A DNA stretch of 64,000 bases from Pseudomonadota bacterium (GTDB lineage: Bacteria; Pseudomonadota; Alphaproteobacteria; Puniceispirillales; Puniceispirillaceae), in NCBI GenBank assembly GCA_027620495.1, contig JAQCEA010000006.1, positions 62,001 through 126,000 on the forward strand, in the 5' to 3' direction. The number at the start of each line of letters is the position of its first letter. Positions within the stretch are counted from its first letter, which is position 1. Made by a program: the position numbers and the translations under genes. The notes beneath the pieces are model-generated. The model was not told the DNA's origin and did not search any database. It saw only the letters and a list, made by a program, of their open reading frames with translations. Below are positions 16,525 through 50,065 of this stretch, one piece after another.

Positions 16525-16525
16525 G

Positions 16526-21954: not shown

Positions 21955-23010
21955 CTACTCGGCTGGCTTGGGTCTGGCCTTTTTGTCTTCTTCCTCAACC
22001 CACAAATTATGGTGTTCTTTGGCCCAGTTGCGATCAACATGGCCCGTATTCATGGCATCAATCGCACCTTCCATACCAACTGAACCAATATAAATATGCG
22101 CAATGATCATCGTCACAAGCGCCAAAGACACAATGCCGTGCCATAGTTGGTTCAACTGTTGTTCCTGCATCGCCGTCAAATCTGTTGGCAAATTAAAGCC
22201 AATAACATTGAGCAAGGCAAAGGTATCAGCGAACATCGTTGTCTGGAAAGGAAACAGCAGGGCGATTCCCGACATACTGACCGACAAGCCCCCGATCATC
22301 ACCGCCCAAAAAATGATTTTTTGCCCCGCATTAAATTTGCGCGCAGGCGGATGTACACCTTTTTTGAAAATACCACCGCCAGCTTTCAACCACGCTATAT
22401 CAATCTTGCTTGGCACATTGTGACGCACCCACAAAATAAAGGACAACGCCAAACCGGCCATAAACGCAAAGGCCAAATAATTATGGGCATATTTTCCGAC
22501 TGTGGTGAAAGCGGCAAAGGCATCCTTGCCGATAATTGGTATTAAAATATATCGGCCATACAGCATATTTAATCCGGTAATCCCTAACACAACAAACGAC
22601 CCTGCCATCAGCCAATGCGCGAAACGGTCAATTGTGCCAAATCTGAGAATTGTGTCACCAGACGGCCCGGCATCGATACGAATTTTGCCGCGGATGAAGT
22701 AAAAAACCACCAGCAGACCAATAATCCCCAATACCGCATAGGCCCCAACATTTGACAGAGGCCCGTTGCGGAAGGCGCGCCAGTTATCACCCTCAGACTG
22801 GATCATCACAGCGGATAATTCATTTTTCATCTGTGTCGAACCGGCATTACCGGTGCGGACATAACGCCACAAATCAGCGTCAGAATTAACGCCAAGTGTT
22901 TGTCCGGGTACCTCGCCTTTTTGTTGTGCGTGTACAGGTGTTGTCATGCTCACCATACCGCACAACAACCCCGCTAAAATAACAAATACACCGAAATATC
23001 TATTCAACAT
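21955..23010 (-). CDS. fdhC: Formate dehydrogenase gamma subunit (cytochrome b556)
   Basis: A 351-residue membrane subunit passing electrons from the periplasmic catalytic dimer to quinone. A signal peptide and a periplasmic segment (about residues 30-90) precede the four-helix cytochrome b core. Likely haem ligands are His in RFAHWLMAG, KYAHNYLAF, NQLWHGIVSL and IIAHIYIGS. The start ATG 23010 has GGAGACC upstream and gives a good signal peptide; the frame extends to 23040. The N-terminal periplasmic extension is typical of alphaproteobacterial forms. It lies between a small lipoprotein and the WD40-cytochrome c. Confidence 0.9.
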   Translation of the reverse strand: MLNRYFGVFVILAGLLCGMVSMTTPVHAQQKGEVPGQTLGVNSDADLWRYVRTGNAGSTQMKNELSAVMIQSEGDNWRAFRNGPLSNVGAYAVLGIIGLLVVFYFIRGKIRIDAGPSGDTILRFGTIDRFAHWLMAGSFVVLGITGLNMLYGRYILIPIIGKDAFAAFTTVGKYAHNYLAFAFMAGLALSFILWVRHNVPSKIDIAWLKAGGGIFKKGVHPPARKFNAGQKIIFWAVMIGGLSVSMSGIALLFPFQTTMFADTFALLNVIGFNLPTDLTAMQEQQLNQLWHGIVSLALVTMIIAHIYIGSVGMEGAIDAMNTGHVDRNWAKEHHNLWVEEEDKKARPKPAE

Positions 23011-23048
23011 CTGCTCTGGTCTCCTTTTCCCGGGACACACAACCCTGT

Positions 23049-23359: not shown

Positions 23360-23950
23360 CTAGCTTTTGATGGAATAGGCTGTACCCCATCCCCATGCGC
23401 CAGATCCAAATCCACGGGCAACAACCCGCTCACGGAAGATGTTTGATACCTGATCACCATCACCCGCCAGCAACGCCTTGGTTGAACACATTTCTGCGCA
23501 AATAGGCAACTTGCCTTCAGCCAGACGGTTGCGACCATATTTCTGGAATTCACTTTCAGACATATCGTCTTCTGGGCCACCGGCGCAAAATGTACATTTG
23601 TCCATTTTGCCACGTGATCCATAGTTACCAGCCTGTGGGTATTGCGGCGCGCCGAACGGACACGCATAGAAGCAATAGCCACAGCCAATGCACAGGTCTT
23701 TTGAATGCAACACCACACCCTGTTCGGTCTGGTAGAAGCAATCCACCGGACAAACCGCCATACAAGGCGCATCTGAACAGTGCATACATGCCACCGAGAT
23801 GGAGCGCTCGCCGGGCTTTCCGTCTTGGATGGTGACCACCCGCCGACGATTTACCCCCCAAGGAACTTCATGCTCGTTTTTACATGCAGTTACACAGGCA
23901 TTACATTCGATACAACGTTCTGCATCACATAGAAATTTCATTCGTGCCAT
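23360..23950 (-). CDS. fdhB: Formate dehydrogenase beta subunit (4Fe-4S)
   Basis: A 196-residue iron-sulfur electron-transfer subunit. Four cysteine groups are visible: CIECNACVTACKNEH near residue 13, CMHCSDAPCMAVCPVDC, CIGCGYCFYACPFGAPQ, and the separated CTFC with PICAEMCSTKAL. This gives the usual four 4Fe-4S clusters. It has no C-terminal membrane anchor, unlike E. coli FdnH, so it must be held by the gamma subunit. It follows the alpha gene by 11 bases and is followed by a strong terminator. Confidence 0.92.
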   Translation of the reverse strand: MARMKFLCDAERCIECNACVTACKNEHEVPWGVNRRRVVTIQDGKPGERSISVACMHCSDAPCMAVCPVDCFYQTEQGVVLHSKDLCIGCGYCFYACPFGAPQYPQAGNYGSRGKMDKCTFCAGGPEDDMSESEFQKYGRNRLAEGKLPICAEMCSTKALLAGDGDQVSNIFRERVVARGFGSGAWGWGTAYSIKS

Positions 23951-23961: not shown

Positions 23962-26853
23962 TTACACGCGTTCAATTGAACACAGAGAACATTTAGTTTC
24001 CTGCATCAACGTCACTGAGTCATAGCCATAAGTCATGGCCGTGTTTGCCGCTTCACCAAGTACGTAAGGATCTGAACCCTCTGGGTACTTTGATCGCTGA
24101 TCAACACCTTCTAGATGCCCGCCGAAATGGAATGGAAGGAATGCCACCCCTCTAGCCACACGCTCGGTGACCATAGCCATCACCTTAATACGCGCACCTT
24201 CTGGAGTGTTGACCCAGACCATATCGCCGTTACGAATACCCTTACCATTGGCATCAAACGGATTCAGCTCAACAAACATGTCTTGCTGAAGCTCCGCCAG
24301 CCATGGGTTAGACCGGGTTTCATCACCGCCACCTTCATATTCAACAAGACGGCCCGATGTCAAAATAATCGGATAGTCTTTGCTGTAATCCTTGTCCTGA
24401 ATTGACTTGTACAAAGTCGGCAAGCGATACAGCTTTCTGTCTGAATATGTTGGATAATCTTCCACAAGATCACGACGTGATGTGTATAACGGTTCACGAT
24501 GCAACGGAATTGGGTCCGGGAATGTCCAGACCTTCACCCGTGCTTTGGCGTTACCAAACGGGGCACAACCATGCTTAATGGCAACCCGCTGGATGCCACC
24601 TGACATGTCAACTTTCCAGTTGGTTTTATCACCAGCAACAGCCTCAATCGCGTTACGCTCATCGGCTGTAAGATCACCGTCCCAGCCAAGCTTTTTCAGC
24701 ATGCCCATGGTGAATTCTGGATACCCATCCTTAATTTCCGACCCCACCGGATATGAACCTTCAGCCAACAAATTATTGCCTTCATGTTCAACACCGAAAC
24801 GCGCACGGAAACATAAACCACCTTCAGCCACTGGCTTTGAAGTGTCATACAGATTTGGTGTGCCCGGATGTTTCATATCGGCCGTACCCCAACAAGGCCA
24901 AGGCAAGCCATAATATTCACCATCCATTTCACCACCAACAGCCTGCAATGTTGTACGATCGAACACATGCTGGTTGGCCATATGCGCCTTGATACGCTCT
25001 GGTGATTGGCCAGTGTACCCAATCGTCCACATGCCACTGTTAAATTCCCGCGTCACATCTTCGACATATGGCTCTTCACCATTCACCTTAATGTTGCGGA
25101 ACATACGATCTTCAAATCCGAATTTTTTCGCGAATTTGTAGATGATGGTGTGATCCGGCAATGAGTCAAATGAAGGCTCAATGATCTTTTCACGCCACTG
25201 TAATGAACGGTTTGACGCCGTCACAGACCCATAGGTTTCAAACTGGGTTGTAGCTGGCAGCAAATAAACCCCATCTGTACGATCAGACAAGACTGCAGAC
25301 ACTGTTGGATATGGATCAATCACGACCATCAGGTCAAGTTTCTCCATCGCCGTCTTCATCTCTTTCATACGAGTCTGAGAGTTCGGCGCATGTCCCCAGA
25401 ATACCATAGCTCGCAAATTATTAGGCTGATCCATATTGTCCTTATTTTCAAGAACGCCATCAATCCAGCGAGACACAGGAATACCGCTCATATTCATCAG
25501 GCTTTTGGCCTTGCCGTCTTTGTCCTTGATCGAATCAAAACGTGCTTTCAGCCATTCAACATCTTCGCCCCAAACACGTGCCCAATGTTTCCAGGCACCA
25601 GCTGACAAGCCATAATAACCTGGCAATGTGTGAGACAGAACACCGAAATCTGTTGCCCCTTGAACGTTACAGTGACCACGGAAAATATTGGCACCCCCAC
25701 CAGACGTACCAATGTTACCAAGCGCCAATTGCAGTGCGCAATACGCACGGGTATTATTGTTACCATTGGTGTGCTGTGTACCGCCCATACACCAAATGAA
25801 GGTGCCAGGACGGTTATTTGCCATGATTTGAGCAACACGTTTTAGCTGCGATCCAGGTACACCAGTGACCCGTTCGGTCTCGGCTGGCGTCCATTTTCTG
25901 ACCTCTTCCATCACATCTTCCATGCCATAAACCCGCTGGCGGATATATTCTTTATCTTCCCAGCCATTTTCGAAGATGTGCCACATAATACCCCAAATCA
26001 GCGCCACGTCAGAACCCGGACGGAACCGGACATATTCATCAGCATGCGCTGCGGTGCGGGTAAAGCGTGGGTCGCACACGATCACCGGTGCATTATTTTG
26101 TTCTTTGGCTTTCAGCACATGCATCAATGATACCGGATGCGCTTCTGCCGGGTTGCCACCAATAATGAATATCGCACGTGAATTGTGGATATCATTATAG
26201 GAATTGGTCATCGCCCCATAGCCCCAAGTGTTGGCAACACCGGCCACAGTGGTGGAGTGACAAATACGCGCCTGATGGTCGCCGTTATTTGAACCCCAAT
26301 AGGCATAAAACTTACGGAACAAATAGGCCTGTTCGTTACTATGCTTCGCTGATCCAAGCCAATACACTGAATCTGGGCCAGATTTTTCACGGATATCGAG
26401 CATCTGGTCGCCGATTTCATTAATCGCGTCATCCCAGCTCATCCGCACCCATTTGCCACCAGACAGCTTCATGGGGTATTTTAGGCGCCGTTCACCGCTT
26501 GCAGTTTCACGCACCGATGCTCCTTTCGCGCAATGCGCGCCAAGGTTAATCGGGCTGTCCCAACCTGGTTCTTGCCCAGTCCAAACGCCATTTTGCACCT
26601 CTGCAACCACAGTACAACCGACAGAACAGTGGGTACAAACTGACTTTTTGATTTCTGCGGCCATACCGCCACCGGCCGCTTGTGCTGGTTTCACATTTGA
26701 ACCAACCACTGCGGCGGCTGTCGCCAACCCTCCAATAGCAAGACCAGAACCGCGCAAAAATGCACGGCGGTCAACAACCATTTCGGCTGCTTTGCTAATA
26801 AAAGATGATGACTGGGGGCTTCGCGCTACCCCGGACGCCTTCTTTCTAAGCAT
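23962..26853 (-). CDS. fdhA: Formate dehydrogenase alpha (catalytic) subunit, cysteine form
   Basis: A 963-residue bis-MGD enzyme oxidising formate to CO2. A Tat signal with DRRAFLRGSGLAIGG lies at about residues 28-45. The 4Fe-4S motif is CTHCSVGC with a distal CAKG. The metal ligand position reads ARICHSTTVAG, with Cys where E. coli FdnG has selenocysteine; no in-frame TGA is present. The C-terminal MopB domain contains LTSGRLVEYEGGGDETRSNP. Linked tupABC genes suggest tungsten as the metal, which is inference. The Tat signal places it in the periplasm with beta and gamma. Confidence 0.95.
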   Translation of the reverse strand: MLRKKASGVARSPQSSSFISKAAEMVVDRRAFLRGSGLAIGGLATAAAVVGSNVKPAQAAGGGMAAEIKKSVCTHCSVGCTVVAEVQNGVWTGQEPGWDSPINLGAHCAKGASVRETASGERRLKYPMKLSGGKWVRMSWDDAINEIGDQMLDIREKSGPDSVYWLGSAKHSNEQAYLFRKFYAYWGSNNGDHQARICHSTTVAGVANTWGYGAMTNSYNDIHNSRAIFIIGGNPAEAHPVSLMHVLKAKEQNNAPVIVCDPRFTRTAAHADEYVRFRPGSDVALIWGIMWHIFENGWEDKEYIRQRVYGMEDVMEEVRKWTPAETERVTGVPGSQLKRVAQIMANNRPGTFIWCMGGTQHTNGNNNTRAYCALQLALGNIGTSGGGANIFRGHCNVQGATDFGVLSHTLPGYYGLSAGAWKHWARVWGEDVEWLKARFDSIKDKDGKAKSLMNMSGIPVSRWIDGVLENKDNMDQPNNLRAMVFWGHAPNSQTRMKEMKTAMEKLDLMVVIDPYPTVSAVLSDRTDGVYLLPATTQFETYGSVTASNRSLQWREKIIEPSFDSLPDHTIIYKFAKKFGFEDRMFRNIKVNGEEPYVEDVTREFNSGMWTIGYTGQSPERIKAHMANQHVFDRTTLQAVGGEMDGEYYGLPWPCWGTADMKHPGTPNLYDTSKPVAEGGLCFRARFGVEHEGNNLLAEGSYPVGSEIKDGYPEFTMGMLKKLGWDGDLTADERNAIEAVAGDKTNWKVDMSGGIQRVAIKHGCAPFGNAKARVKVWTFPDPIPLHREPLYTSRRDLVEDYPTYSDRKLYRLPTLYKSIQDKDYSKDYPIILTSGRLVEYEGGGDETRSNPWLAELQQDMFVELNPFDANGKGIRNGDMVWVNTPEGARIKVMAMVTERVARGVAFLPFHFGGHLEGVDQRSKYPEGSDPYVLGEAANTAMTYGYDSVTLMQETKCSLCSIERV

Positions 26854-26884: not shown

Positions 26885-27082
26885 TTAGAACCGTGCGCTG
26901 TTGTAAAATGCCTTTACATGTTCAGTTTCACGATAACCAGCCCCAGTTGGCGCTGCTGTTTCGTTTGCTGACGCGGCCTTGCCCGCAACAGCCACCGCAC
27001 CGGCGGCCGCAACAGAAATGGCCGACCGCTTTAAAAAGTCGCGGCGGTCTGCAACAGCATCTTCTGCTTTCTTATGTTCCAT
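26885..27082 (-). CDS. Small formate dehydrogenase-region Tat protein
   Basis: A 65-residue protein with a twin-arginine signal (ADRRDFLKRSAISVAAAGAV) and a short tail ending HVKAFYNSARF. It matches the pattern of the TIGR02811 formate dehydrogenase region Tat-target family. The ATG at 27082 has a perfect GGAGG six bases upstream, so the longer frame to 27121 is rejected. It is immediately upstream of the alpha subunit gene. The family's function is not established; it may assist export or membrane association of the enzyme. Confidence 0.85.
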   Translation of the reverse strand: MEHKKAEDAVADRRDFLKRSAISVAAAGAVAVAGKAASANETAAPTGAGYRETEHVKAFYNSARF

Positions 27083-27141
27083 TCTTACCTCCAAATTGCG
27101 CCACACAAAAATGCGCGGCATTACGGCACCGGGGCGTCACG

Positions 27142-27762
27142 CTACCCAGCCCGATCCATGCTGAAAGCGGTGCTTTCAATCTCCAAAAACGCCTTACCAA
27201 TCGTTCCCACAGGCGCGAAAAACACAACAGATTTTGCCGCCTCTATATCGCGCATCAATAGGCCGCCCCAAGGCTCTATATGTTTGTTAAAAAACTCTGC
27301 CTGTTCACCAATGGAAAATGACCGGCCGAAATGCCCACGAATCAGCCCCGACATCATGTCGAATAAACTCGCAATATGGTCTTCAGGCTCTTTTACGCCT
27401 TCTACCCGCACAATGCCAATTTTGGCCATGTCAGAGCGTAAATTTGCCAGCGGTTTGTCATTCAGAAACCCGGTCAGATAATATGACGCAAATGGCAGAA
27501 TCTCGCCGCGCCCAACACCAATGAACATTTCAACATATTCATTGCGAATCAAGCCATTATCCAGATTTTTAGCTAGGTGCGCCAACGTCAAGCACGCGCT
27601 GCCAATCGGCGTATCATCGCCTTGTAGCTGCGCCACTTTATCGATTAATTCGTCGCCGGGCTCGGTGCGCAATAATGACGCCAGAAAATCATACATATCT
27701 GCCCGCAGCGCGTCCTCCTCGCTGATGGGTTGAATATCTGTTATCGCTTCTTTTGCGCGCAC
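27142..27762 (-). CDS. TorD-like chaperone for formate dehydrogenase
   Basis: A 206-residue cytoplasmic chaperone of the TorD/DmsD type. Key segments are LRADMYDFLASLLRTEP, the family motif EYVEMFIGVGRGEILPFASYY, and EPEDHIASLFDMMSGLI. Such proteins hold the alpha subunit for cofactor insertion and check the Tat signal. The start is taken as GTG 27762 because AAGGAG lies 6 bases before it; the frame opens earlier to 27846 and has an ATG at 27795. It precedes the small Tat protein and the alpha gene. Confidence 0.85.
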   Translation of the reverse strand: MRAKEAITDIQPISEEDALRADMYDFLASLLRTEPGDELIDKVAQLQGDDTPIGSACLTLAHLAKNLDNGLIRNEYVEMFIGVGRGEILPFASYYLTGFLNDKPLANLRSDMAKIGIVRVEGVKEPEDHIASLFDMMSGLIRGHFGRSFSIGEQAEFFNKHIEPWGGLLMRDIEAAKSVVFFAPVGTIGKAFLEIESTAFSMDRAG

Positions 27763-27898
27763 ACACTTCTCCTTAACACCAAAAAACGCTAGCATAGCAT
27801 TGCCATCGGCGCAATAACCAACGGCAAAAACAAAATATTTTTTCAATGACGAAGCATCTTGTCACAAACACGATCAAAACAAGAAGGCTGAACGCTTA

Positions 27899-28822
27899 TT
27901 ACCCATCTGATTTTACATGAAATTTCATGCGTTGTGGCCGCCGTGGTGTCATGTCTGTATCGGGTAGTGCAGCGGGGTCTTGGTCAATTTCATCCGCGAA
28001 TTTGCGATCCGCTCCTGAAGAGACCGTATGGTGCGGTGTGGTTTGCCGGGGGTGCGCGGCTACAGATATTGGTTGCACAGCTTCGTTGGTGCTGCCCAAA
28101 TCGCGATCACCTTTTGCCAATGGCAGATCACTGTCAGCTTGCCCCCCTGCCGCAGTCATATCGGCTTGATCATCTGCATCTGGCGCACCATCTAGGTCCC
28201 GGTCGGTTTGGGGTTTTGCTGCATTATCGGCTGTCTCTTGCGGCGCCTCAGCATCTGCCAATTTGGCCTGTTCTTCAGCCTGTTCTTCGGCCTGCTCTTC
28301 GGCTTGTTCTTCGGCCTGCTCTTCGGCTTGTTCTTCAGCTTGTTCTTCGGCTTGTTCTTCAGGCGAAAGGGTTTTTTTCAAATATCCTTTTCCCGCCTGA
28401 TAGGCTGTTTGCATGCCTTCGATCACGGTCGCCGCGTCGGTATAATCCTCGCCATATTCAACCATTTCATCGACAACGCCAAAAAAAGGGTTGATCCGCC
28501 ATAACCGCCGCAATGCCAGTTGCCGCAATCGTTCCGGGGTTTTGCCATCAAAAAAACGTTCCAATCCGGCTTCTTCTTCGACCTCCTGCGGGTCAGGCAA
28601 TTCATATTTTTCGAGAAGTTCAGCATCGCTTAATGCCGCTTCTTCTTCGCTTTCGCTCGCGCCATCATGATCCGCCGCCAACGCTTCAGCACCAAGATCG
28701 ACATTTTCCTCTGCGATATCTTCACCGCGGGCAATTTGTGCTTTACGCGTCGACCAGCGAGACAGAAATCCACCTCCATTGGTGCCGGTATCGCTGGGGT
28801 TTGATCCGCCCGGTTTATTCAT
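27899..28822 (-). CDS. DUF3306 protein with EEQA repeats
   Basis: A 307-residue acidic protein. The N-terminus GGGFLSRWSTRKAQIARGE is the DUF3306 hallmark, and residues about 65-140 (ELPDPQEVEEEAGLERFFDG, LRRLWRINPFFGVVD) complete the domain. An eightfold Glu-Glu-Gln-Ala repeat follows at about residues 155-186, then a disordered tail. ATG 28822 has AGGGA upstream and is preferred over ATG 28840. DUF3306 is usually coupled with DUF3305 ahead of formate dehydrogenase genes. Its function is unknown. The repeat is highly charged and likely a helical or coiled spacer. Confidence 0.85.
   Translation of the reverse strand: MNKPGGSNPSDTGTNGGGFLSRWSTRKAQIARGEDIAEENVDLGAEALAADHDGASESEEEAALSDAELLEKYELPDPQEVEEEAGLERFFDGKTPERLRQLALRRLWRINPFFGVVDEMVEYGEDYTDAATVIEGMQTAYQAGKGYLKKTLSPEEQAEEQAEEQAEEQAEEQAEEQAEEQAEEQAKLADAEAPQETADNAAKPQTDRDLDGAPDADDQADMTAAGGQADSDLPLAKGDRDLGSTNEAVQPISVAAHPRQTTPHHTVSSGADRKFADEIDQDPAALPDTDMTPRRPQRMKFHVKSDG
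28266..28361 (-). repeat. Eight tandem 12-bp repeats coding for EEQA
   Basis: Eight in-frame copies of a 12-base unit (on the plus strand GCYTGYTCTTCR) encode Glu-Glu-Gln-Ala eight times inside the DUF3306 gene. Copies differ only at third positions. The unit length is a multiple of three, so copy-number slippage would change protein length without a frameshift. Confidence 0.95.
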
Positions 28823-28909
28823 TGATTTGTTCCCTTGCAATGCATTTTATTACGGCATTTCATTCTGATCAGGCGTTTGTGACCACTGGCATGCTGTGGC
28901 GGTAACTGT

Positions 28910-29536
28910 TTAGTGGTAGTCATTTTTACGAGTTGGTGACCGAAACACATCTCCATCCCGTTGCAAACGCGGGTCTCCCCGGCCCGGTTCCTGACCATCA
29001 ACACGCACCTTGTCACGTCTGCGTTTTTTGAAAGGTTCGGGCTTAAAATGGTTTTTCACAAATGCTGTTACAAACTCGGCAATTGGCCCTTGTAACGGCA
29101 ATTTTTCAATATGGTCTTCACCACAATCTTCAATATCCTGAATATTATACGGGGACACGCTCAACTCTGCCAGATGCACATCGACACCATCATCCGCATC
29201 ATCTTCAATTTCATTGTCCCGCAATACCACATAAATGGCTGGTTCCGATGACGCCAGATTTTCGGCATAGGCTTCAGCCTCTGCCCGGTGGAGATCAAGT
29301 GATGCTTCTGCGCTGTATAACGCGCCAGATTCAACATCATCTGTATCAGCCCTCAGCCTTACCAGACGGATATTGTTGATTGGCGGCATGCCATCGCCAG
29401 CTTTCACATCCAGCGGTACCAGATCATGCACAACCCATCGATGCGACTGCCAGATATTTTGCATTTCTTGACGCTCAAATATTACCCTGACAGCATATAA
29501 AACATGTTTGGATGATGCTGATATTGTCTCGGTCAC
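28910..29536 (-). CDS. DUF3305 protein, first gene of formate dehydrogenase operon
   Basis: A 208-residue protein of the DUF3305 family. The N-terminal pattern VIFERQEMQNIWQSHRWVVH and the central EPAIYVVLRDNE and LAELSVSPYNIQDIED are characteristic. The C-terminal 45 residues are basic and low-complexity (KPEPFKKRRRDKVR). It heads the minus-strand operon and is divergent from the polyferredoxin gene across 176 bases, which must hold both promoters. Function is unknown; constant pairing with DUF3306 suggests a two-protein assembly factor. Confidence 0.85.
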   Translation of the reverse strand: MTETISASSKHVLYAVRVIFERQEMQNIWQSHRWVVHDLVPLDVKAGDGMPPINNIRLVRLRADTDDVESGALYSAEASLDLHRAEAEAYAENLASSEPAIYVVLRDNEIEDDADDGVDVHLAELSVSPYNIQDIEDCGEDHIEKLPLQGPIAEFVTAFVKNHFKPEPFKKRRRDKVRVDGQEPGRGDPRLQRDGDVFRSPTRKNDYH

Positions 29537-29712: not shown

Positions 29713-31746
29713 ATGTCCAAACTATTTAATGATCAAGTCATTATCTGTAATTGTGGCGGCACAATGGATATTGACGGCAAAAAACTGGCAAAAGCCTGTG
29801 GTTCAACAACGCCTTGTGATGTGTACACATCGCTATGCCGCAACCAGACCGATAAATTGGCTAGCGCAATGATGACGGCGCATGAAAATGATCGCCAATT
29901 GATTGTCGCCTGCACCCAAGAAACAGCGACATTTGACGCCATTGCGGAAGAGCATGACTGCGCCCCACCAACGACCGTCAACATTCGTGAATTGGCCGGC
30001 TGGTCTGAAAATTCTGCGAGCGCCCTGCCGAAAATGGCGGCATTGATGCGACAAGCCGGTGACAGCAAGCGCCCCGGCCTTAGCCTCAGCATGATATCGC
30101 ATGGCCGTTGCCTAATTTATGCTGATGCCAAGCGGCCAAATGGTGGCACTGCCGCCGCCCTAGAGCTTGGCGCGCGGCTCAACGGCACTTTGGGCGTGAC
30201 GGTGATGATCGCCAATGCTGGCAACGGCATTGATGCCAGCGCAGATGCTGGCCTTGTCACCACCGGTTCGATCCGGTCTGTGTCGGGTCACTTCACCCGG
30301 TTTAATCTGGTCATTGATAAATTTTCTGAAGCCGCCCCGCACAGCCGCAGCCAGCTTGTATTTGGCACGTTACAAGACGGCGTTGAAACAGGGTGCGACA
30401 TCCTGATTGATCTGACTGGTGATACCCCGCTTTTTACCGGTTGGGAAAAGCGCGACGGCTATTTGCGTGCGCAGGCAGATGACAGCCTGGCTATGGCAAA
30501 AATTGAACGTGAGGCCATGCAACTTATTGGCGAATTCGAAAAGCCGATTTACGTAAATTTTGACGAGACCATATGTGCGCATTCGCGCAACAAGATTGAC
30601 GGATGTTCGCGCTGTCTTGATATCTGTCCGGCAGGGGCCATCACCAGCTTGGGTGACCATGTCAATATTGACCCGGCGATATGTGGTGGCTGCGGGTTAT
30701 GCGGCGCGGTATGTCCATCAGGCGCGGTGCAAACCGCCTATCCGCCAGCTGATCAACTGCTGGCCAGCATAGCCCGACTGCTTGACTATTATCATGATGC
30801 TGGCGGCAAAAATGCCAGCTTATTGCTTCATGATGATAGTTATGGACGCGAAGTTATCGAAATGATCGCGCGGTTCGGACGTGGCTTGCCGGGTGATCTG
30901 TTGCCGGTATCAATGCACGCAATTGGCCGGGCCGGGCACGACTTGATGGTTGGTGCCATTGCGCTTGGGTACAAACAGGTATTTATCCTGTTAAACCCAA
31001 ATAAAGCGGCAGAAAACGAACCGTTGATTGCGCAGCGCGAACTGGCCGAAGCGATGCTGACCGGGGTTGGGGTTCACACCGCAAACCAAATTATGCTGCT
31101 GGATGATGTCGATCCTGACATTATTGCTGACAAACTATATGACAGCGCCCACAAGCCAAAAGGCAAATCAGCTCCATTTAGTCCGGTTGGAACGCCGCGC
31201 GGGTACACAAGGCTGGCGATGCGCGGTCTGGCGACTGCCAACAATGTGAAACAAGCCATTATTGCGCTGCCAGATGGTGCCCCTTATGGCCGTGTCAATA
31301 TTGATACAGACAATTGTACTATTTGCTTATCATGCGTCAGTGCCTGTCCAGCTGGCGCGCTACAGGATAATCCAGATGCACCACAATTACTGTTTCGCGA
31401 GGATGCCTGCCTGCAATGCGGTATTTGCGCGGCGACATGTCCAGAAAAAGTCATTGCACTGGAGCCACAATTTAATTTAACCGACAGCGCCATGGCCGCT
31501 GAATTGGTGGTAGAGGATACACCATTTTCCTGCACCCAGTGTGGCAAGCCATTCGGCAGTACAAAATCGATTGAAACAGTCATTGCCAAGTTGAGCGATC
31601 ACAGCATGTTTCAGCAAACTGCCCGCACCGATATGTTGAAAATGTGCGAAGATTGCCGGGTGGAAGCCATGTTTGCGCAAAATGACAAGACCATGGATGT
31701 TGGCGAACGACGCAAACCGCGCACAACTGATGATTATTTGAACTGA
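29713..31746 (+). CDS. 4Fe-4S polyferredoxin of formate dehydrogenase locus
   Basis: A 677-residue iron-sulfur protein. The N-terminal 240 residues contain CNCGGTMD and look like a HdrA-like or unrecognised domain. Two ferredoxin pairs follow: CSRCLDICPAGAI with CGGCGLCGAVCPSGAV (about residues 298-335) and CTICLSCVSACPAGAL with CLQCGICAATCPEKVI (about residues 535-590). C-terminal CTQCGKPF and CEDCR may bind another metal. There is no signal peptide, so it should be cytoplasmic. It is divergent from the DUF3305 operon. It may carry electrons between cytoplasmic donors and an assembly step of the enzyme. Confidence 0.8.
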   Translation: MSKLFNDQVIICNCGGTMDIDGKKLAKACGSTTPCDVYTSLCRNQTDKLASAMMTAHENDRQLIVACTQETATFDAIAEEHDCAPPTTVNIRELAGWSENSASALPKMAALMRQAGDSKRPGLSLSMISHGRCLIYADAKRPNGGTAAALELGARLNGTLGVTVMIANAGNGIDASADAGLVTTGSIRSVSGHFTRFNLVIDKFSEAAPHSRSQLVFGTLQDGVETGCDILIDLTGDTPLFTGWEKRDGYLRAQADDSLAMAKIEREAMQLIGEFEKPIYVNFDETICAHSRNKIDGCSRCLDICPAGAITSLGDHVNIDPAICGGCGLCGAVCPSGAVQTAYPPADQLLASIARLLDYYHDAGGKNASLLLHDDSYGREVIEMIARFGRGLPGDLLPVSMHAIGRAGHDLMVGAIALGYKQVFILLNPNKAAENEPLIAQRELAEAMLTGVGVHTANQIMLLDDVDPDIIADKLYDSAHKPKGKSAPFSPVGTPRGYTRLAMRGLATANNVKQAIIALPDGAPYGRVNIDTDNCTICLSCVSACPAGALQDNPDAPQLLFREDACLQCGICAATCPEKVIALEPQFNLTDSAMAAELVVEDTPFSCTQCGKPFGSTKSIETVIAKLSDHSMFQQTARTDMLKMCEDCRVEAMFAQNDKTMDVGERRKPRTTDDYLN

Positions 31747-31778
31747 CCCGGGGTTTAACTAGGGCGGTGTTTTTATCG

Positions 31779-32768
31779 TTAAGATAGTGCCGCCAAAGGC
31801 AGATTCATCAATAGATTTTGCGGCTTAAAATGCACCACGCCTGCTGCATCCATGGCCAGCCCCATGTAGATCGGCTTGCCCTGCATTTCAGCAATAAACC
31901 CTCTATCCGCCTCAAGTTTAAACAGGCACAATATCTGTTTTAACCGAGACTCGTTGACGTCTTTGCCATGGTAAAGATCGTTCAGGATGGATGTTGCCTG
32001 TGCGTCAAGACCAAGATGCCATGCCCATTTGTCGTCCTCGATTTGCAGCATTGGTGTCACACGCACACTCAACGACAAAAAATGTGCGACCCATTTTTCA
32101 ATCACACGTGCCAAGCCATCGAGTGCTGGCTGGGTAAAGGCAATATCAACAGAAGTGTTAAACTGATCTGACCTCTGCCAATATTCATCAGCCGTCTCAC
32201 TTGCCATGATATCGATCAAAGTCTCATTCCCAGCAACGTCTTCGCCTTGCATCCTTTGTATGCCAATCTGCAATTTCACCGTTTCTTGATCGGCCACCAT
32301 AATACGGCCGTCATCAAGCGTTACCACCTGATCACGAAACAGCAATTCAGCCGCACGAATTTGCATTGGATCGGTCACCCCATCCAGAATATTCCGCAAA
32401 ATGATTTGCGTCATCTGCTCGACAAACAGCGGCGGAAATTGAATTTTTGCGCCGCGGGTGATCGCCATATAGGCGTCCTCAAGACTGTTAAAATTCGATA
32501 GAAAATCTCGAAACCGCAACACTGCCTGATAATTATGCACAACATCTTTATCAGCGATTTCAAACAAATCTGTCGGCACCACAGACGCAAAGGGATCATC
32601 GATTAGTTTTTTGTGAAGCGCCAATTCTGCCGGACAAGAAGCAGCTTCCGGGGCGACTTCATCACGCATAAAATAGGCCCGCATAAAATCAACGGTTGGC
32701 ACCATATGTCCGTTTTCGTCACGAATTAACAAATGCCATCCGGATGTAAGCCAAAAATCTTGCGTCAT
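31779..32768 (-). CDS. DUF6352 family protein
   Basis: A 329-residue cytoplasmic protein matching my memory of DUF6352: DFWLTSGWHLLIRDENGHMV at the N-terminus, the double segment FPPLFVEQMTQIILRNILDG, then AAELLFRDQVVTLDDGRIMV. No catalytic motif or cofactor site is obvious. It is the last gene of the accessory operon next to DUF6505, with which it regularly co-occurs near formate dehydrogenase genes. It converges with the polyferredoxin gene over 32 bases. Its function is unknown. Confidence 0.72.
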   Translation of the reverse strand: MTQDFWLTSGWHLLIRDENGHMVPTVDFMRAYFMRDEVAPEAASCPAELALHKKLIDDPFASVVPTDLFEIADKDVVHNYQAVLRFRDFLSNFNSLEDAYMAITRGAKIQFPPLFVEQMTQIILRNILDGVTDPMQIRAAELLFRDQVVTLDDGRIMVADQETVKLQIGIQRMQGEDVAGNETLIDIMASETADEYWQRSDQFNTSVDIAFTQPALDGLARVIEKWVAHFLSLSVRVTPMLQIEDDKWAWHLGLDAQATSILNDLYHGKDVNESRLKQILCLFKLEADRGFIAEMQGKPIYMGLAMDAAGVVHFKPQNLLMNLPLAALS

Positions 32769-32838
32769 CTGCCCTGATCTTTCCTAAATTTTGAGTCCAT
32801 ATGAAATCAAGCCAGCTAAAATTCTGTTCAAAGCCCGA

Positions 32839-33330
32839 TCACGCATTTTCAACATCATCATCAATGATCGTCCATATTTTTTGCTCGGCACAGGAATCTG
32901 GCTTTGGCAAACTGCGAAAGACCTCTTTGATACCGTCGTCACCCCAACTTCGCTGAATGGCAAGCAACGTGCCGGTTTTATGTGATTCACATAGCTCTGC
33001 CATAAATTCAATTTCATCAGCAACCGCATCTGTTGTTGCCGCTTTTGACGGGGCCCCGAATTTTTCAACAAGATGTGTTGCCAGATGATCGGTGATCATC
33101 TCAACATCTGCTGGCCGTGCTGTGACCACACTCACCAGCGTCGAAAAACCAAATGACTGACAGCCTAAAAACCCATTGCTAAAGGCTTGCTTTACCTTGC
33201 CAGTGAGGTCAGCGGGCGGCATCGCCGCAAAACAAAATGTTCCAACAACCGCCCATTCCCCCTCATCTGCGGCGATTGGAAAAACATTTAGGTCAGACGG
33301 GTCAAACCTTATGGTTCGCGCAAGTTTCAT
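32839..33330 (-). CDS. DUF6505 family protein
   Basis: A 163-residue protein. Recognisable segments are MKLARTIRFDPSDLNVFPIA, GEWAVVGTFCFA, VKQAFSNGFLGCQSFGFSTL and MAELCESHKTGTLLAIQR. They match DUF6505 as I remember it. The ATG at 33330 is chosen because it begins at the family start and lies 4 bases after the previous stop; the frame opens as far up as 33417. No catalytic motif is evident. It is flanked by the biotin/lipoate-ligase-like gene and DUF6352 in one operon. Confidence 0.72.
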   Translation of the reverse strand: MKLARTIRFDPSDLNVFPIAADEGEWAVVGTFCFAAMPPADLTGKVKQAFSNGFLGCQSFGFSTLVSVVTARPADVEMITDHLATHLVEKFGAPSKAATTDAVADEIEFMAELCESHKTGTLLAIQRSWGDDGIKEVFRSLPKPDSCAEQKIWTIIDDDVENA

Positions 33331-33334
33331 TAGA

Positions 33335-34120
33335 TCAGGCCTGCGCTTTGACCAAAGCCGGTATGCCACAAACCGTCTCAAGCTCATGTGGTGGGATCGC
33401 AACAGGCTTGCCGTCAAGCTTCACCAGCATACCGCCGGTCTCGTCAAGACCAAGCCATTCAACGCCAGACGCTCCGTCAAAAACAACCTGCAAGCCACTA
33501 TCCAGCCGGTGCATCCACGCATCATAAAGCGGGCGAAACCCGTCATCCTGCCATCGGTTTACCCAGACTAAAAAATGTCGGCTACATGATTCCACAAGAC
33601 GTGTCCTAGATATATGACCGCCCCCCTCTTCGGCGAGTGATGTATGTTCATATACGCTGTTCTGCCGCCAGCTTTCTGCACCGGTATCATCGGTGGAAAT
33701 CACCACTTCAGCACTCACCACCATCCAATCAGGCACCGCGCCAGCACCAGCCGCCGGGTCAACTGCCATTCTCACCACACCCGCGCGCCCTTTATTGAGC
33801 AAGATATACCCTGGCATTTGATAACTCACCGCAACTTCAGGCGGTGCTAATGCGCCAATTGCATCACCGGCCGCGATCATCATCGCAAACAGCATCTGGC
33901 CAGCATCTGCCACCGCTACTTCTGGGCCGAGAACAACAGCAATATGCATCCTATCAACAGCTTCTGAATAAAATACTGTCCCGACATCTGATGATGCGGC
34001 AAGTGCGATCGCCTTGGCATGCAGATTTTGGCTGGCAGGCACCGCAACAGCCGTCAGCAAAGGTGGCAATTGCGGCACGTCATCATCATCGGCGGGAACA
34101 TCTTCATAGTATAATGTCAT
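33335..34120 (-). CDS. Biotin/lipoate protein ligase-like protein (DUF4444-type C-terminus)
   Basis: A 261-residue protein resembling the BPL_LplA_LipB_2 group. A degenerate ligase signature lies at about residues 103-121 (PGYILLNKGRAGVVRMAVD), comparable with the KWPND region of BirA, but in my hand alignment the catalytic lysine position is not Lys. The C-terminal third (SCSRHFLVWVNRWQDDGF, AIPPHELETVCG) fits the DUF4444 extension. It overlaps mrp by 4 bases. It may transfer or bind a cofactor other than biotin. Activity is uncertain because the motif is altered. Confidence 0.7.
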   Translation of the reverse strand: MTLYYEDVPADDDDVPQLPPLLTAVAVPASQNLHAKAIALAASSDVGTVFYSEAVDRMHIAVVLGPEVAVADAGQMLFAMMIAAGDAIGALAPPEVAVSYQMPGYILLNKGRAGVVRMAVDPAAGAGAVPDWMVVSAEVVISTDDTGAESWRQNSVYEHTSLAEEGGGHISRTRLVESCSRHFLVWVNRWQDDGFRPLYDAWMHRLDSGLQVVFDGASGVEWLGLDETGGMLVKLDGKPVAIPPHELETVCGIPALVKAQA

Positions 34121-35202
34121 GCGCTGTCCTCATAGCGGATATCGGCGATTGCCATTAATTTTCTGGCGATCTGCCGATAGGTCTTTGCCTGCGCCGATTG
34201 CGGTTCCGCCACAACGATGGGTGTACCGGCGTCCGAACCGCTGCGCACCGCCAAGGATAGCGGAATTTCGCCAAGCAATTCAATGCCGCGTTTTTTGGCT
34301 TCTCGCGCCGCGCCGCCATCACCGAAAATATGATCGGTGCGCCCGCAATCCGGGCATTGCCATGACGCCATATTCTGGATCATGCCAAGCACTGGTACTT
34401 CGGCTTTTTCAAACATGGTCAATGCTTTCACCACATCCAAAAGGGCAATATCTTGCGGCGTTGACACAATCACCGCCCCAGCCAGCCTGACTTGTTGAGC
34501 CAATGAAATCTGGATGTCGCCAGTGCCGGGGGGCAGATCGATAATGATGACATCCAGAACCCCCCATGCCACCGCATCCAGCATCTGTGTCAGGGCAGAC
34601 TGCACCATAGGTCCGCGCCATATCATCGCCGTATCGTCAGGCACCAACAGCCCCATTGACATCAACTTGACGCCATAATTTTCAAGCGGTTTGACCATGT
34701 CACCACCGGCGGCAGCTGGACGGCCACTCACCCCAAGCATCCGAGGCTGTGATGGCCCATAGACATCAGCATCAAGCAGACCAACGCGCAAACCTTCAAG
34801 CTGCAGAGCAACTGCCAAATTCACCGCTGTAGTCGATTTGCCAACGCCCCCCTTGCCCGAGGCAACCGCAACAAAGCGGCGGATTTTACTTTCTAAAACC
34901 TTTTCACGCGGCGCCATTGGTACCTCGGCAGAAGCCTGAACGGTTTCGGCAGTGGCATGCGCTGTCAACATCACGGTGGCACTGGTCACGCCGTCAATCT
35001 TCAACGCCGCCTGTTCGGCAGCGCGGCGCACCGGTTCCATCGCCGGACCACGGTGTGGCGGAACCTGCAAAGCAAAGCTGATATTGCTGTCTTTGATCTG
35101 TATGGCGGTAACCATTTTGAGCGCGACAATATCACGCCCTTGCGAGGGGTCTTGCACGCTCGCCAGCGCCTCGAGAATACGCTCCTCGGTAAGTTTAGCC
35201 AT
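34117..35202 (-). CDS. mrp: Mrp/NBP35-type Fe-S carrier ATPase
   Basis: A 361-residue ApbC/Mrp protein that binds and delivers 4Fe-4S clusters. An N-terminal MIP18-like domain (about residues 1-85) precedes the P-loop domain with deviant Walker A VASGKGGVGKSTTAVNLA near residue 115 and LLDADVYGPSQPRMLG. The cluster-binding CxxC is seen in WQCPDCGRTDHIFG. It overlaps DUF6494 by 8 bases and the ligase-like gene by 4. This operon position suggests Fe-S delivery to formate dehydrogenase or the polyferredoxin; a general role is also possible. Confidence 0.92.
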   Translation of the reverse strand: MAKLTEERILEALASVQDPSQGRDIVALKMVTAIQIKDSNISFALQVPPHRGPAMEPVRRAAEQAALKIDGVTSATVMLTAHATAETVQASAEVPMAPREKVLESKIRRFVAVASGKGGVGKSTTAVNLAVALQLEGLRVGLLDADVYGPSQPRMLGVSGRPAAAGGDMVKPLENYGVKLMSMGLLVPDDTAMIWRGPMVQSALTQMLDAVAWGVLDVIIIDLPPGTGDIQISLAQQVRLAGAVIVSTPQDIALLDVVKALTMFEKAEVPVLGMIQNMASWQCPDCGRTDHIFGDGGAAREAKKRGIELLGEIPLSLAVRSGSDAGTPIVVAEPQSAQAKTYRQIARKLMAIADIRYEDSA

Positions 35203-35431
35203 CAGCGTCAGGTGCCTTTAGACTTGCAGTCACCACATGCGAGAATTTTAGCGCACCAATTTCAATTGTGGCGGTAACAGGCAGGTCACTTCCCGGCGCC
35301 ACAACACCAGACCGCACAGCATCCTCCAGCGCATCTGAAAGATTTTGATGCCCAGTTACACCGAGCTGTTTTAAAAATTTGCGCACCGTCATTTCGGATG
35401 CTGTCATATCTGATTTTGCGTCTGAACTCAT
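35195..35431 (-). CDS. DUF6494 family small protein
   Basis: A 78-residue protein. Its core MTVRKFLKQLGVTGHQNLSD, then LPVTATIEIGALKFSHVVTA, matches DUF6494 from memory. A good AAGGA ribosome site precedes the ATG at 35431. It overlaps mrp by 8 bases, indicating coupling. Small size without cysteines argues against a metal site. Its function is unknown; it tracks with formate dehydrogenase accessory genes. Confidence 0.75.
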   Translation of the reverse strand: MSSDAKSDMTASEMTVRKFLKQLGVTGHQNLSDALEDAVRSGVVAPGSDLPVTATIEIGALKFSHVVTASLKAPDADG

Positions 35432-35525
35432 TCATTTATCCTTTAAAAAAAATTTTACCGAATCATGGCGCGCTCATTCGCCCCATCAATCGAAGATTTG
35501 CCGCACATGTCCCGCAATATATGGG

Positions 35526-35981
35526 TTATTGATTGGGCGTTTCCAAGGTGCGAGCAAAGGCAAGAATGGCGTCAATATCATCGATTTGCAATTCAATTTC
35601 AGCAATGAATGCTGGCAAAGATTCGGACCTTTCTTCGCTGACCCCAGTGATCTTCACAAGTGCCGGATGCGGCGGCAATGTGTAAAACACCTCAAATCGC
35701 TGTTCCCAATCGGCAAGCCATTTCATCGCCGCAAAAGATGGGGTGGAACCAATGCCGCCATAGGGGTTCATGTTTGGCACAACATGGCATCTTGTACAAT
35801 GCTGACGCACAATTTCGCGTCCCTTTGCAGCGGCGTCATCAGCGCTGGCATTTTGCGGCGTAATCGCCATCATCCCCAGATATATAACACCAAATAGGAT
35901 GCAACATCTGATCGGTACTGTGATAATCCGCACCAAACCATCCCGTCTCAACACCGCGGCAATCATGGTATATGCAGTCAT
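35526..35981 (-). CDS. Small exported c-type cytochrome
   Basis: A 151-residue protein with an N-terminal signal anchor (about residues 15-48) and one haem motif CTRCHVVPNMNPYGGIGSTP. The segments SFAAMKWLADWEQRFEVFY and HPALVKITG follow. The start ATG overlaps the stop of the upstream DUF3144-like gene by four bases. A 94-base gap separates it from DUF6494 downstream. It is plausibly a periplasmic electron carrier linked with formate dehydrogenase; partner specificity is not shown. Confidence 0.8.
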   Translation of the reverse strand: MTAYTMIAAVLRRDGLVRIITVPIRCCILFGVIYLGMMAITPQNASADDAAAKGREIVRQHCTRCHVVPNMNPYGGIGSTPSFAAMKWLADWEQRFEVFYTLPPHPALVKITGVSEERSESLPAFIAEIELQIDDIDAILAFARTLETPNQ

Positions 35982-36292
35982 ACTGATGGGTCAGAGAGAT
36001 GACCGCGTAGCATATCGGTATATTGCGCTGCCATATGCGTTACAAATTCTTCATGCTCGTCAAGCTCTAAAACATTTTTGCCGACATGCGCCGCATAACG
36101 CGCCGCCGCAAATAACATCACCATCTGTAATTCGGTCGCTTCGATCTTTTTGTTGCGCTGATTAGCAAGAGAGATGAATTGATCCGCAACGCGTAAAAAT
36201 GCGGCCTCATCAAGGATACCGTCACGGTGCGTTTCAGGGTCAAATGTTTCAGGGCGTTGATGCCATGCGGGAAATTTCATTTTTACAACCAT
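35978..36292 (-). CDS. DUF3144-like small protein
   Basis: A 104-residue protein whose core FLRVADQFISLANQRNKKIE and MLFAAARYAAHVGKNVLEL resembles DUF3144. ATG 36280 is an alternative start giving 100 residues. It heads the accessory operon and is co-directional with the ModE-like gene 103 bases upstream. No catalytic motif is visible. Function is unknown; the helical pattern suggests a small scaffold or regulator. The family assignment is from memory of the motif and less sure than for its neighbours. Confidence 0.6.
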   Translation of the reverse strand: MVVKMKFPAWHQRPETFDPETHRDGILDEAAFLRVADQFISLANQRNKKIEATELQMVMLFAAARYAAHVGKNVLELDEHEEFVTHMAAQYTDMLRGHLSDPSV

Positions 36293-36395
36293 AGCTTGTT
36301 TTAAACTTTACATGCCGCATGACCTAAATCCGCGTTTATACATCAAAGGCTAGCATTTTTTTGGTCCGGGTCAAAGCAATCAACAAAAGCCCGTT

Positions 36396-36791
36396 TTAAG
36401 CTTCACCTTTTTGATCAACCGCATCCGCGTCAGGGGACCGTTCAAACTGGACCGAACGCAACCAGTCTAGAATGTCAGACGACTGATTGGCAATCAGGCT
36501 GGCGTGGGCTTCATAACGGTGGATCAATTCAGTGGCAAGCGGCGTCAAACTGGCCCCACCACGGGCCTTTCCGCCACGTTCTGTCAGCAAAAGCGGGTCG
36601 GCAAAGCCGCTTTGCATCGAATCAATTAGAAACCAGGCACGCCGGTAATTCATCCCCATTTGCCGCGCCGCCGCACTGATCGACCCGGTTTCGCCAACAA
36701 GCTGCAAAAGTTTGATTTTACCAATGCCGATGGTTTCATTGGCGACAAACAGTTTGGTCCGCACGCTCGGATTTTTATCTACTTTTGTCAT
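36396..36791 (-). CDS. ModE-type winged-helix regulator without TOBE domain
   Basis: A 131-residue LysR-type winged helix protein of the ModE N-terminal class. The pattern GIGKIKLLQLVGETGSISAAARQMGMNYRRAWFLID (given here as its halves GIGKIKLLQLVGETGSISAA and RQMGMNYRRAWFLID) and the wing GGKARGGASLTPLATELI are typical. The ligand-binding Mop/TOBE repeats of full ModE are missing, so metal sensing must be indirect or through another partner. It is divergent from tupA with an inverted repeat between them (36824-36847), and probably autoregulates and controls tungstate uptake. Confidence 0.85.
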   Translation of the reverse strand: MTKVDKNPSVRTKLFVANETIGIGKIKLLQLVGETGSISAAARQMGMNYRRAWFLIDSMQSGFADPLLLTERGGKARGGASLTPLATELIHRYEAHASLIANQSSDILDWLRSVQFERSPDADAVDQKGEA

Positions 36792-36823
36792 TTATCAGTC
36801 CTATGTTGCACCTTTTTTTACAC

Positions 36824-36847: not shown

Positions 36848-36944
36848 GGCTTTACGTACCCAAATTATTGTGTAATTAGCCTTGATATCGGCCTGCATGA
36901 CACACGGCCTTTCTCTTTTTTGTTAACTGTGAACGGTAAGAAAA

Positions 36945-37802
36945 ATGATGTCAAATCGCACCTTGAATAAATATTTGCGTCTTTTCCAAAAATCAGCACT
37001 TGCCTGTTTTGTCATCTTCGCGGCTATTTTGGCGAACCGTCCGGCCGTAGCAGACAATCCATTCATCATTTTGCAATCAACAACATCGACACAAAATTCC
37101 GGGTTGTATGATTATTTACTGCCGCACTTTACCGCCAAAAGCGGCATTGACGTCCGCGTTGTGGCTGTTGGCACCGGCCAAGCATTGCGGAATGCTGAAA
37201 AATGTGATGGCGATGTTTTGGTTGTCCATTCAAAAGCCGATGAAGTTAAATTTGTTGAAAACGGATTTGGCACCAAACGTTCCAATCTGATGTATAATGA
37301 TTTTGTTGTTCTCGGGCCGGCAAATGACCCTGCCAATATTGCTTCGGCGACAACCGTCGACGAGGCGCTCCAACGTATATCAGCCAGCCAATCTGCATTC
37401 GCGTCGCGCGGCGATAATAGCGGTACGCACAAGGCCGAAAAACGTCTATGGAAGGCCGCCAACATAGCCATCGATAGCGCGGTAAATAGCTGGTATTTGG
37501 AAACGGGTCTTGGCATGGGCGCAACTCTAAATTTTGCCGTGCAGGCCAACGCCTATACATTGAGCGACCGGGCAACATGGCTAGCCTTTGCCAATCGGGC
37601 CGGTCACAAAATCTTGTTTCAGGGACAACCGCCCCTGTTCAACCAATATGGTGTTGTGCCAGTCAGCAAATCTCATTGTCCAAATGTAAAACATGAATTG
37701 GCACAAGAATTTACCGACTGGCTGGTCAGCCCAGACGGTCAAAATATGATTGCCAGTTACAAACGCAACGGTGCCCAGCTATTTTTTCCCAACGCTGACT
37801 AA
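36945..37802 (+). CDS. tupA: Tungstate-binding periplasmic protein TupA
   Basis: A 285-residue exported solute-binding protein. A signal peptide at about residues 15-37 (ending AVA) precedes the ligand-binding fold. The motif LQSTTSTQNSGLYDYLLPHF is the TupA signature, and FASRGDNSGTHKAEKRLW carries further oxyanion contacts. TupA binds tungstate with very high affinity. Its membrane partners TupB and TupC are 22 kb upstream. ATG 36948 is an equal alternative start. Its divergence from a ModE-like gene and closeness to formate dehydrogenase support tungsten supply. Confidence 0.88.
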   Translation: MMSNRTLNKYLRLFQKSALACFVIFAAILANRPAVADNPFIILQSTTSTQNSGLYDYLLPHFTAKSGIDVRVVAVGTGQALRNAEKCDGDVLVVHSKADEVKFVENGFGTKRSNLMYNDFVVLGPANDPANIASATTVDEALQRISASQSAFASRGDNSGTHKAEKRLWKAANIAIDSAVNSWYLETGLGMGATLNFAVQANAYTLSDRATWLAFANRAGHKILFQGQPPLFNQYGVVPVSKSHCPNVKHELAQEFTDWLVSPDGQNMIASYKRNGAQLFFPNAD

Positions 37803-50063: not shown

Positions 50064-50065
50064 GC

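Follow-up and report, generated by a model that had tools for sequence, protein, structure and literature searches.

Genes that accompany FDH3-type formate dehydrogenase in a SAR116-type genome, among them an apparently inactivated relative of biotin ligase, may form an assembly module for the enzyme

This analysis concerns a group of genes that accompanies FDH3-type formate dehydrogenase and may take part in its assembly, found in a 64,000-nucleotide stretch of DNA (the window; positions 62,001 to 126,000 of contig JAQCEA010000006.1, assembly GCA_027620495.1) from a 2.4 Mb genome of the SAR116 or Candidatus Puniceispirillum type. Seven open reading frames, all on the minus strand and tightly packed between positions 36292 and 31779, encode a DUF3144 protein, a cytochrome c, DUF6494, an Mrp/ApbC-type Fe-S carrier ATPase, a protein resembling biotin and lipoate ligases, DUF6505 and DUF6352 (Table 1), and the genes for formate dehydrogenase share this strand and lie past the divergent gene of a polyferredoxin. 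A sequence-only reading of this DNA had described the seven as a compact operon with overlapping genes, and with regard to their coordinates, their Pfam families and their overlaps of 4 to 8 bp that description is accurate: DUF3144 and cytochrome c genes overlap by 4 bp, DUF6494 and mrp by 8 bp, and mrp and the ligase-like gene by 4 bp, as calculated from the coordinates, the ligase-like gene is followed by a gap of 4 bp if DUF6505 starts from its conserved ATG (33330), and a gap of 70 bp separates DUF6505 from DUF6352. A ModE-like gene is positioned upstream on the same strand, and the transcript may thus comprise eight genes, with the ModE-like gene being the first. Scans of positions 31650-37000 for promoters and terminators produced sites no more numerous than those in shuffled sequences.

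Table 1. Positions, within the window, of the genes of the group and of the formate dehydrogenase region
Feature	Position	Strand	Match or motif
DUF3144 protein, 104 aa	35978..36292	-	Pfam 46 bits (cut-off 25)
Mono-haem cytochrome c, probably exported, 151 aa	35526..35981	-	one CxxCH; Pfam match below cut-off
DUF6494, 78 aa; conserved region from ~35407	35195..35431	-	Pfam 58.6 bits (cut-off 24)
Mrp/ApbC-type Fe-S carrier ATPase	34117..35202	-	PF10609, 326.7 bits (cut-off 27.1), and PF01883
Pseudo-BirA (ligase-like protein)	33335..34120	-	PF16917, 203.2 bits (cut-off 27)
DUF6505, 163 aa counted from conserved ATG (33330)	32839..33330	-	Pfam 180.9 bits (cut-off 23.9)
DUF6352, 329 aa	31779..32768	-	Pfam 395.6 bits (cut-off 25)
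Polyferredoxin, 677 aa; just outside the seven-gene interval, divergent	29713..31746	+	
DUF3305	28910..29536	-	
DUF3306	27899..28840	-	
TorD/NarJ-like chaperone	27142..27846	-	
Formate dehydrogenase region TAT-target peptide	26885..27121	-	TIGR02811, 54.1 bits (curated cut-off 48.45)
FdhA, catalytic subunit	23962..26853	-	twin-arginine (RR) motif near N-terminus; closest solved structure 9vap_A
FdhB, FDH3 beta subunit	23360..23950	-	NF038355, 344.2 bits (curated cut-off 240)
FdhC, membrane cytochrome b subunit	21955..23040	-	
ModE-like regulator	36396..36791	-	below curated cut-off
TupA-like tungstate-binding protein	36945..37802	+	215.6 bits (below curated cut-off 400)

The enzyme is of the FDH3 type, as its FdhB scores above the curated cut-off for the FDH3 beta subunit. 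Both FdhA and the neighboring TAT-target peptide carry twin-arginine signals, and the catalytic site is therefore expected in the periplasm. The closest solved relative of FdhA is SoFdhA (9vap_A, 1403 bits), a component of SoFdhAB, which the accessible part of its description presents as an oxygen-tolerant tungsten enzyme carrying one [4Fe-4S] cluster in FdhA and four in FdhB (PMC13397495). This relationship, along with the TupA-like neighbor, suggests that the enzyme encoded here probably uses tungsten.

A tie of the gene group to formate dehydrogenase, also proposed by the sequence-only reading, withstands the co-occurrence check named by that reading and is strongly supported by two genome samples. 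One is a sample of 114 alphaproteobacterial genomes, those listed being nearly all from different families, in which 19 encode FdhA of the FDH3 type (called at E <=1e-100, with every listed match scoring at least 1175 bits). The polyferredoxin is encoded in all 19 of these versus one of the 95 genomes without FDH3 (the match in genome G060 being partial), and the same numbers are found for DUF3305. DUF6352 is present in 16/19 versus 1/95, the ligase-like protein in 13/19 versus 0/95 (both the zero and the six absences resting on a score cut of 114 bits), DUF6505 in 11/19 versus 1/95 when matches above the cut-off are counted (a sub-threshold match in G076 was left uncounted), and DUF6494 in 15/19 versus 6/95. 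Fisher tests, which are not tree-aware, return p values from 1.3e-9 to 9.9e-21 for the six families. None of the tested families among the seven tracks the enzyme as strictly as the polyferredoxin, which is part of the module, even though it is positioned outside the seven-gene interval. The exceptions are few. One is genome G107, which encodes DUF3305, DUF3306 and the polyferredoxin, along with an FdhA relative of only 34% identity. Another is G006, a fragmented assembly with no FdhA match, in which the contig holding DUF6352 is 10 kb long and also carries WD40 and TupA-like genes. A third is a weak DUF6505 match in G101 that contains a stop. In G107, the DUF3305 and DUF3306 genes (locus L174, G107:C3:101000-117000) are located beside genes for FdhD-like and MobA-like proteins, so named from their translations, and opposite a divergent polyferredoxin gene, with no FDH3-type FdhA; these genes may serve another molybdoenzyme.

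The second sample consists of 299 genomes of Pseudomonadota, of which 23 encode DUF6352, and an FDH3-type FdhA is found in every one of the 23, a one-directional co-occurrence in that the count starts from the DUF6352 genomes, the frequency of FDH3 in the other 276 being outside its scope. In three of the 23 FdhA was already known from the class sample, 14 have FdhA on the same fetched 20 kb, and six have it elsewhere in the genome; of these six, in which DUF6352 is distant from FdhA or located on a different contig, five are from outside the Alphaproteobacteria. A separate observation is that G053 possesses a second formate dehydrogenase of the same type (FdhA 54% identical) and a second polyferredoxin, both on other contigs (L157, L181).

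Gene order is also conserved, to different degrees in different lineages. The succession DUF3144, cytochrome c, DUF6494, mrp, ligase-like gene and DUF6505 is the same in 13 of 13 loci (L005-L017) of SAR116-type or unnamed alphaproteobacterial relatives, one of these beginning inside DUF3144 and one ending after DUF6505, and FdhA is found on the fetched stretch in eight of them. Two Rhodobacterales plasmids carry, in this order, genes for the polyferredoxin, DUF6494, Mrp, the ligase-like protein and DUF6505. In Sinorhizobium and Bradyrhizobium, the succession is ligase-like gene, DUF6505, DUF6352, DUF3305, DUF3306, TorD, TAT-target peptide, FdhA, FdhB and FdhC, several of the junctions being overlaps, and, overall, gene order is conserved in four annotated plasmids, in which some of the neighboring genes overlap. 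A similar gene set was detected in Methylobacterium bullatum in a profile search. In 11 of the 19 class-sample genomes with FDH3, the fetched stretch that contains FdhA also contains at least one of the three genes (ligase-like, DUF6505, DUF6352). Plasmid records include 78 with DUF6505 and 96 with FdhA, and in many Rhodobacterales the cluster is plasmid-borne. DUF3144 and the cytochrome c gene are present at the locus mainly in SAR116-type genomes, with one further case of DUF3144 near formate dehydrogenase in G153, and mrp is present at the locus in SAR116, Rhodobacterales and a few others. The proposal of a single seven-gene operon thus stands only in part: the seven do not constitute a single conserved unit, since DUF3144 and the cytochrome are mostly local additions and Mrp belongs to a subset.

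The ligase-like protein is a clear BirA homologue over the catalytic and C-terminal parts that matches PF16917 and falls in the BPL/LplA/LipB family, as does the structure PDB 3bfm. An alignment of 32 copies linked to formate dehydrogenase (14 of these from the window or loci L005-L017) with 18 BirA proteins from the sampled genomes reveals that the linked copies all miss a loop of the GRGRxGR type, present as GxxRxGx in 18/18 BirA controls. In the same 32 of 32 the lysine of KWPND...K is replaced by R, L, S, A, E, F or G, while 17 of the 18 controls keep it, the remaining control being cut off at that position. We take the loop to be the adenylate-forming biotin/ATP loop and the lysine to be the catalytic one, from what is known of BirA. 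In a maximum-likelihood tree of the 32 linked and 17 BirA rows a single branch separates the two sets with support of 100/99, the bootstrap being not fully settled. From these features, the protein looks catalytically dead and is best called pseudo-BirA, and the erased active site suggests that it is now a scaffold. The expectation that the fold is that of a ligase but the active site is altered is thus borne out. PF16917 matches as such do not define the linked family: this idea was rejected, as the profile also matches ordinary BirA, with matches in 81 of 114 genomes. The 114-bit cut retained 14 genomes, of which the lowest, G072, was rejected as encoding a true BirA, leaving 13. Weaker PF16917 matches inspected at 16 loci (L051-L066) are BirA-like and possess the loop, and others, including that of G001, were judged by score alone.

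The mrp gene of the window is a second copy in its genome, 47-49% identical to the other. The Walker A motif KGGVGKST and the CxxC motif are kept in 18 of 18 linked copies, a 19th row with a weak ParA-like match (72 bits) having been left out, and we infer that the linked Mrp would be a [4Fe-4S] carrier for formate dehydrogenase. In four genomes (G276, G286, G379 and G387) the Mrp near the cluster is closer to the other Mrp of the SAR116-type genome to which the window belongs (51-57%) than to the window copy (44-50%), so that the association of Mrp with the cluster may have more than one origin, a suggestion based on identities rather than on a tree of housekeeping Mrp proteins. The polyferredoxin carries four ferredoxin-type [4Fe-4S] motifs and a C-terminal pair of CxxC motifs that does not vary across an alignment of 30 rows, from which three truncated ones were excluded, and segments of the protein resemble the ferredoxin domains of HdrA and FwdF; a heterodisulfide-reductase-like N-terminus, suspected by eye, received no support on comparison. 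The cytochrome c scores 18.7 bits versus the Pfam cut-off of 27, but a single CxxCH motif is present and the protein is hydrophobic over a stretch at its N-terminus. In a 19-residue hydropathy scan it reaches 2.07, while the other module proteins remain at or below 1.70, the maximum being that of Mrp, a soluble family. The polyferredoxin peaks at 1.38, far from the N-terminus, and has no hydrophobic export signal; DUF3305 and DUF3306, putative membrane proteins according to the available part of one account (PMC4464133), reach 0.65 and 0.40. This pattern, from a simple scan and not a signal-peptide predictor, fits work in the cytoplasm preceding export by the twin-arginine translocation (Tat) system. 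DUF6494, a frequent partner at formate dehydrogenase loci, has very weak helix-turn-helix matches (GntR, E 0.009; RpiR, E 0.012), both below the cut-off. A profile-profile comparison of nine families of the cluster, looking for hidden homology, produced no pair above 2.3% probability.

Other genes in the window may relate to the enzyme or to its cofactor. DUF3305 (28910-29536) matches the C-terminal part of NF011058, an NCBIfam family of MobA with a DUF3305 domain, and this fusion hints that DUF3305 may help to deliver the pterin cofactor in its guanylated form. A WD40 protein with one CxxCH haem motif (20549-21928) is encoded next to fdhC; in G072, G109 and G006 the parts matching this WD40-cytochrome are split between two divergent genes. 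About 13 kb from the cluster, at 49464-51019, a gene for MobA (184.8 bits, cut-off 151.85) is found beside an FdhD-like gene (50066-51019; 138.6 bits versus a cut-off of 140.9). At 13403-18086 are genes for an ABC transporter like TupB/TupC and moaE-, moeA-, mobB- and moaA-like genes, all of them identified by eye from the N-termini. The window as a whole gives the impression of a tungsten/molybdenum cofactor island.

One more consideration is FdhE. According to the accessible part of a review, FdhE binds iron, possesses four CX2C motifs and systematically accompanies the operons of periplasmic formate dehydrogenases, and in the model presented there the exported enzymes are assembled before Tat export (PMC10609526). 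No match to FdhE_N (PF04216) was found in the genome of the window or in the other 18 FDH3 genomes, the E. coli control being positive, and none of DUF6352, DUF6505 and pseudo-BirA is assigned an FdhE domain by Pfam. Based on the model of assembly before export and on FdhE not being found in the 19 genomes, we propose that cluster loading and quality control for FDH3 would be performed by the module.

Thus, the explanation that we prefer, with a probability of about 0.55, is that the gene group encodes a cytoplasmic assembly (maturation) module for a Tat-exported formate dehydrogenase of the FDH3 type, probably one using tungsten. All of the products except the cytochrome would work in the cytoplasm. 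Pseudo-BirA, as a non-catalytic protein, would act together with DUF6505 and DUF6352 as a scaffold or chaperone for the still unfinished dimer of FdhA and FdhB, the linked Mrp, where present, would deliver [4Fe-4S] clusters to FdhAB, and the polyferredoxin would be a reservoir of clusters or a supplier of electrons. The pterin cofactor would be handled by TorD, DUF3305, DUF3306, MobA and FdhD, and the finished dimer would then be released to Tat. The role of the module for the FDH3 class would be that of FdhE for the exported enzymes of the E. coli type. The more specific proposition, of an assembly independent of FdhE in which an inactivated biotin ligase serves as the scaffold with DUF6505 and DUF6352, Fe-S clusters being supplied by an Mrp dedicated to this task and by a polyferredoxin of unusual type, is more tentative, and we consider it somewhat less than an even bet.

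A number of observations weigh against this explanation. FdhE is rare in the class overall, scoring above the cut-off in only three of 114 genomes (Fisher p = 1), and its absence from the 19 FDH3 genomes is therefore weak evidence. Pseudo-BirA is missing from six of the 19, DUF6505 from eight and DUF6352 from three, with G060 missing all three; because FDH3 genomes exist without each of these, some as draft assemblies, no single scaffold gene is indispensable. DUF6494 is also found in six genomes without FDH3 (G007, G014, G025, G071, G102 and G107) and thus probably has a wider role. One Azospirillum plasmid and one Variovorax plasmid, when inspected, were found to carry formate dehydrogenase without the module within 9 kb. 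The structure models are of little help, as the one for DUF6352 (mean predicted local distance difference test, pLDDT, of 69.7) has no Foldseek match at E <=0.001, the best being 0.82, and no solved chain at Z >=5, the best VIA-align Z being 3.8, and the one for DUF6505 is too poor to use (mean pLDDT 47.7). What is established is the linkage and, at the level of sequence, the loss of catalytic residues; binding by the module proteins, cluster transfer and a mutant phenotype are predictions.

As to alternative explanations, we consider it unlikely that the polyferredoxin and its partners constitute a cytosolic redox partner that connects formate dehydrogenase, or else its chain of quinone and cytochrome, with an acceptor in the cytosol, the DUF proteins being structural parts of the complex. 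Such a link would agree with the polyferredoxin being present in every FDH3 genome, with its similarity to HdrA and FwdF, and with the cytochrome c and the WD40-cytochrome c being encoded in the same clusters, but FdhA is expected to have its catalytic site in the periplasm, the polyferredoxin has no hydrophobic signal for export, and pseudo-BirA, Mrp, TorD, DUF3305 and DUF3306 are a better match for assembly. Less probable still is a regulatory module, in which pseudo-BirA and DUF6494 would detect formate, tungstate or ligands resembling biotin and, together with ModE, control the formate dehydrogenase genes. The upstream position of the ModE-like gene on the same strand, the helix-turn-helix matches of DUF6494 and the ancestry of pseudo-BirA, given that BirA is also a repressor in some bacteria, are in line with this idea, but those matches are sub-threshold, pseudo-BirA has no Pfam match to a DNA-binding domain, and the Fe-S proteins are left unexplained. 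We find it very improbable that the genes are mere passengers, dragged along on a mobile formate dehydrogenase island, as the plasmid-borne clusters of Rhodobacterales and the local additions of DUF3144 and cytochrome c might imply. In the six genomes of the phylum sample linkage is lost but co-occurrence of DUF6352 with FDH3 is kept, which argues against simple hitchhiking, and purifying selection is indicated by dN/dS (ratio of nonsynonymous to synonymous substitution rates) of 0.008-0.11 for DUF3144, DUF6494, mrp, the ligase-like gene, DUF6505, DUF6352 and the polyferredoxin gene, rough values obtained with one relative (L005) and with dS above 1 (saturated) in every gene compared. Least probable of all is that, along the lines of the cofactor attachment suggested by the sequence-only reading, a ligase couples lipoate, biotin or something related to a component of the enzyme. 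The fold family is the right one, but the loop and the lysine are both missing in all 32 copies and not in the BirA controls, and a Pfam scan of 20 cluster proteins lists no biotinyl or lipoyl carrier domain. Insertion of metal centers may still be involved.

If the group is indeed assembly machinery, it names the genes to be supplied for production of FDH3-type enzymes, which are of applied interest, in foreign hosts. It would also explain how exported formate dehydrogenases are made without FdhE, provide a function for three or four DUF families and for the structure 3bfm, and add one more biotin ligase turned pseudoenzyme. Among the matches listed in the literature searched, most subscription journals being outside the search, neither a description of the module nor DUF6352, DUF6505 or DUF6494 was found, and, within that literature, the module is new as a described unit. 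A transposon study of C. necator, in the part available, reports that the soluble and not the membrane-bound formate dehydrogenase dominates on formate (PMC11540253), which is no test of the module.

The proposed assembly module can be compared with several known systems. Among these are the clusters of FDH3 or SoFdhAB type, representing the same class of enzyme with the same DUF3305, DUF3306 and TorD/DmsD-like neighbors, and the accessible parts of the respective accounts leave pseudo-BirA, DUF6505, DUF6352, DUF6494 and the Mrp copy unmentioned (PMC4464133; PMC13397495). Of the individual components, the Mrp of the window shares with the Mrp/ApbC carrier ATPases the N-terminal FeS_assembly_P domain, the P-loop and the CxxC motif, but scores 332.8 bits, below the ApbC equivalog cut-off of 348, and is encoded, as a second copy, in a formate dehydrogenase cluster. 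Pseudo-BirA differs from BirA in having lost both the loop and the lysine and in forming a separate branch, and it belongs to one family with 3bfm, deposited as a 'Biotin protein ligase-like protein of unknown function', which matches the window protein at E 1.4e-26 and the linked copy of G018 at 4.9e-78. The polyferredoxin is reminiscent of HydN and YsaA, ferredoxin-type accessory proteins of FDH-H, but HydN, from what is accessible of its description, resembles the small subunit of formate dehydrogenase, while the 677-aa polyferredoxin is much larger and has extra conserved cysteines (PMC6004506). The CX2C motifs of FdhE and the cysteine motifs of the polyferredoxin are alike in motif only. 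The maturation by FdhE and FdhD of the E. coli type involves, as does the process proposed here, dedicated cytoplasmic helpers, a Tat-exported formate dehydrogenase, [4Fe-4S] clusters and a bis-pterin cofactor, judging from the part of the review available (PMC10609526), and an FdhD-like gene is present in the window as well, the difference being in the FdhE family, not found in the 19 FDH3 genomes. In kind, the module would thus belong with a known type of process, the enzyme-specific maturation of pterin-type formate dehydrogenases.

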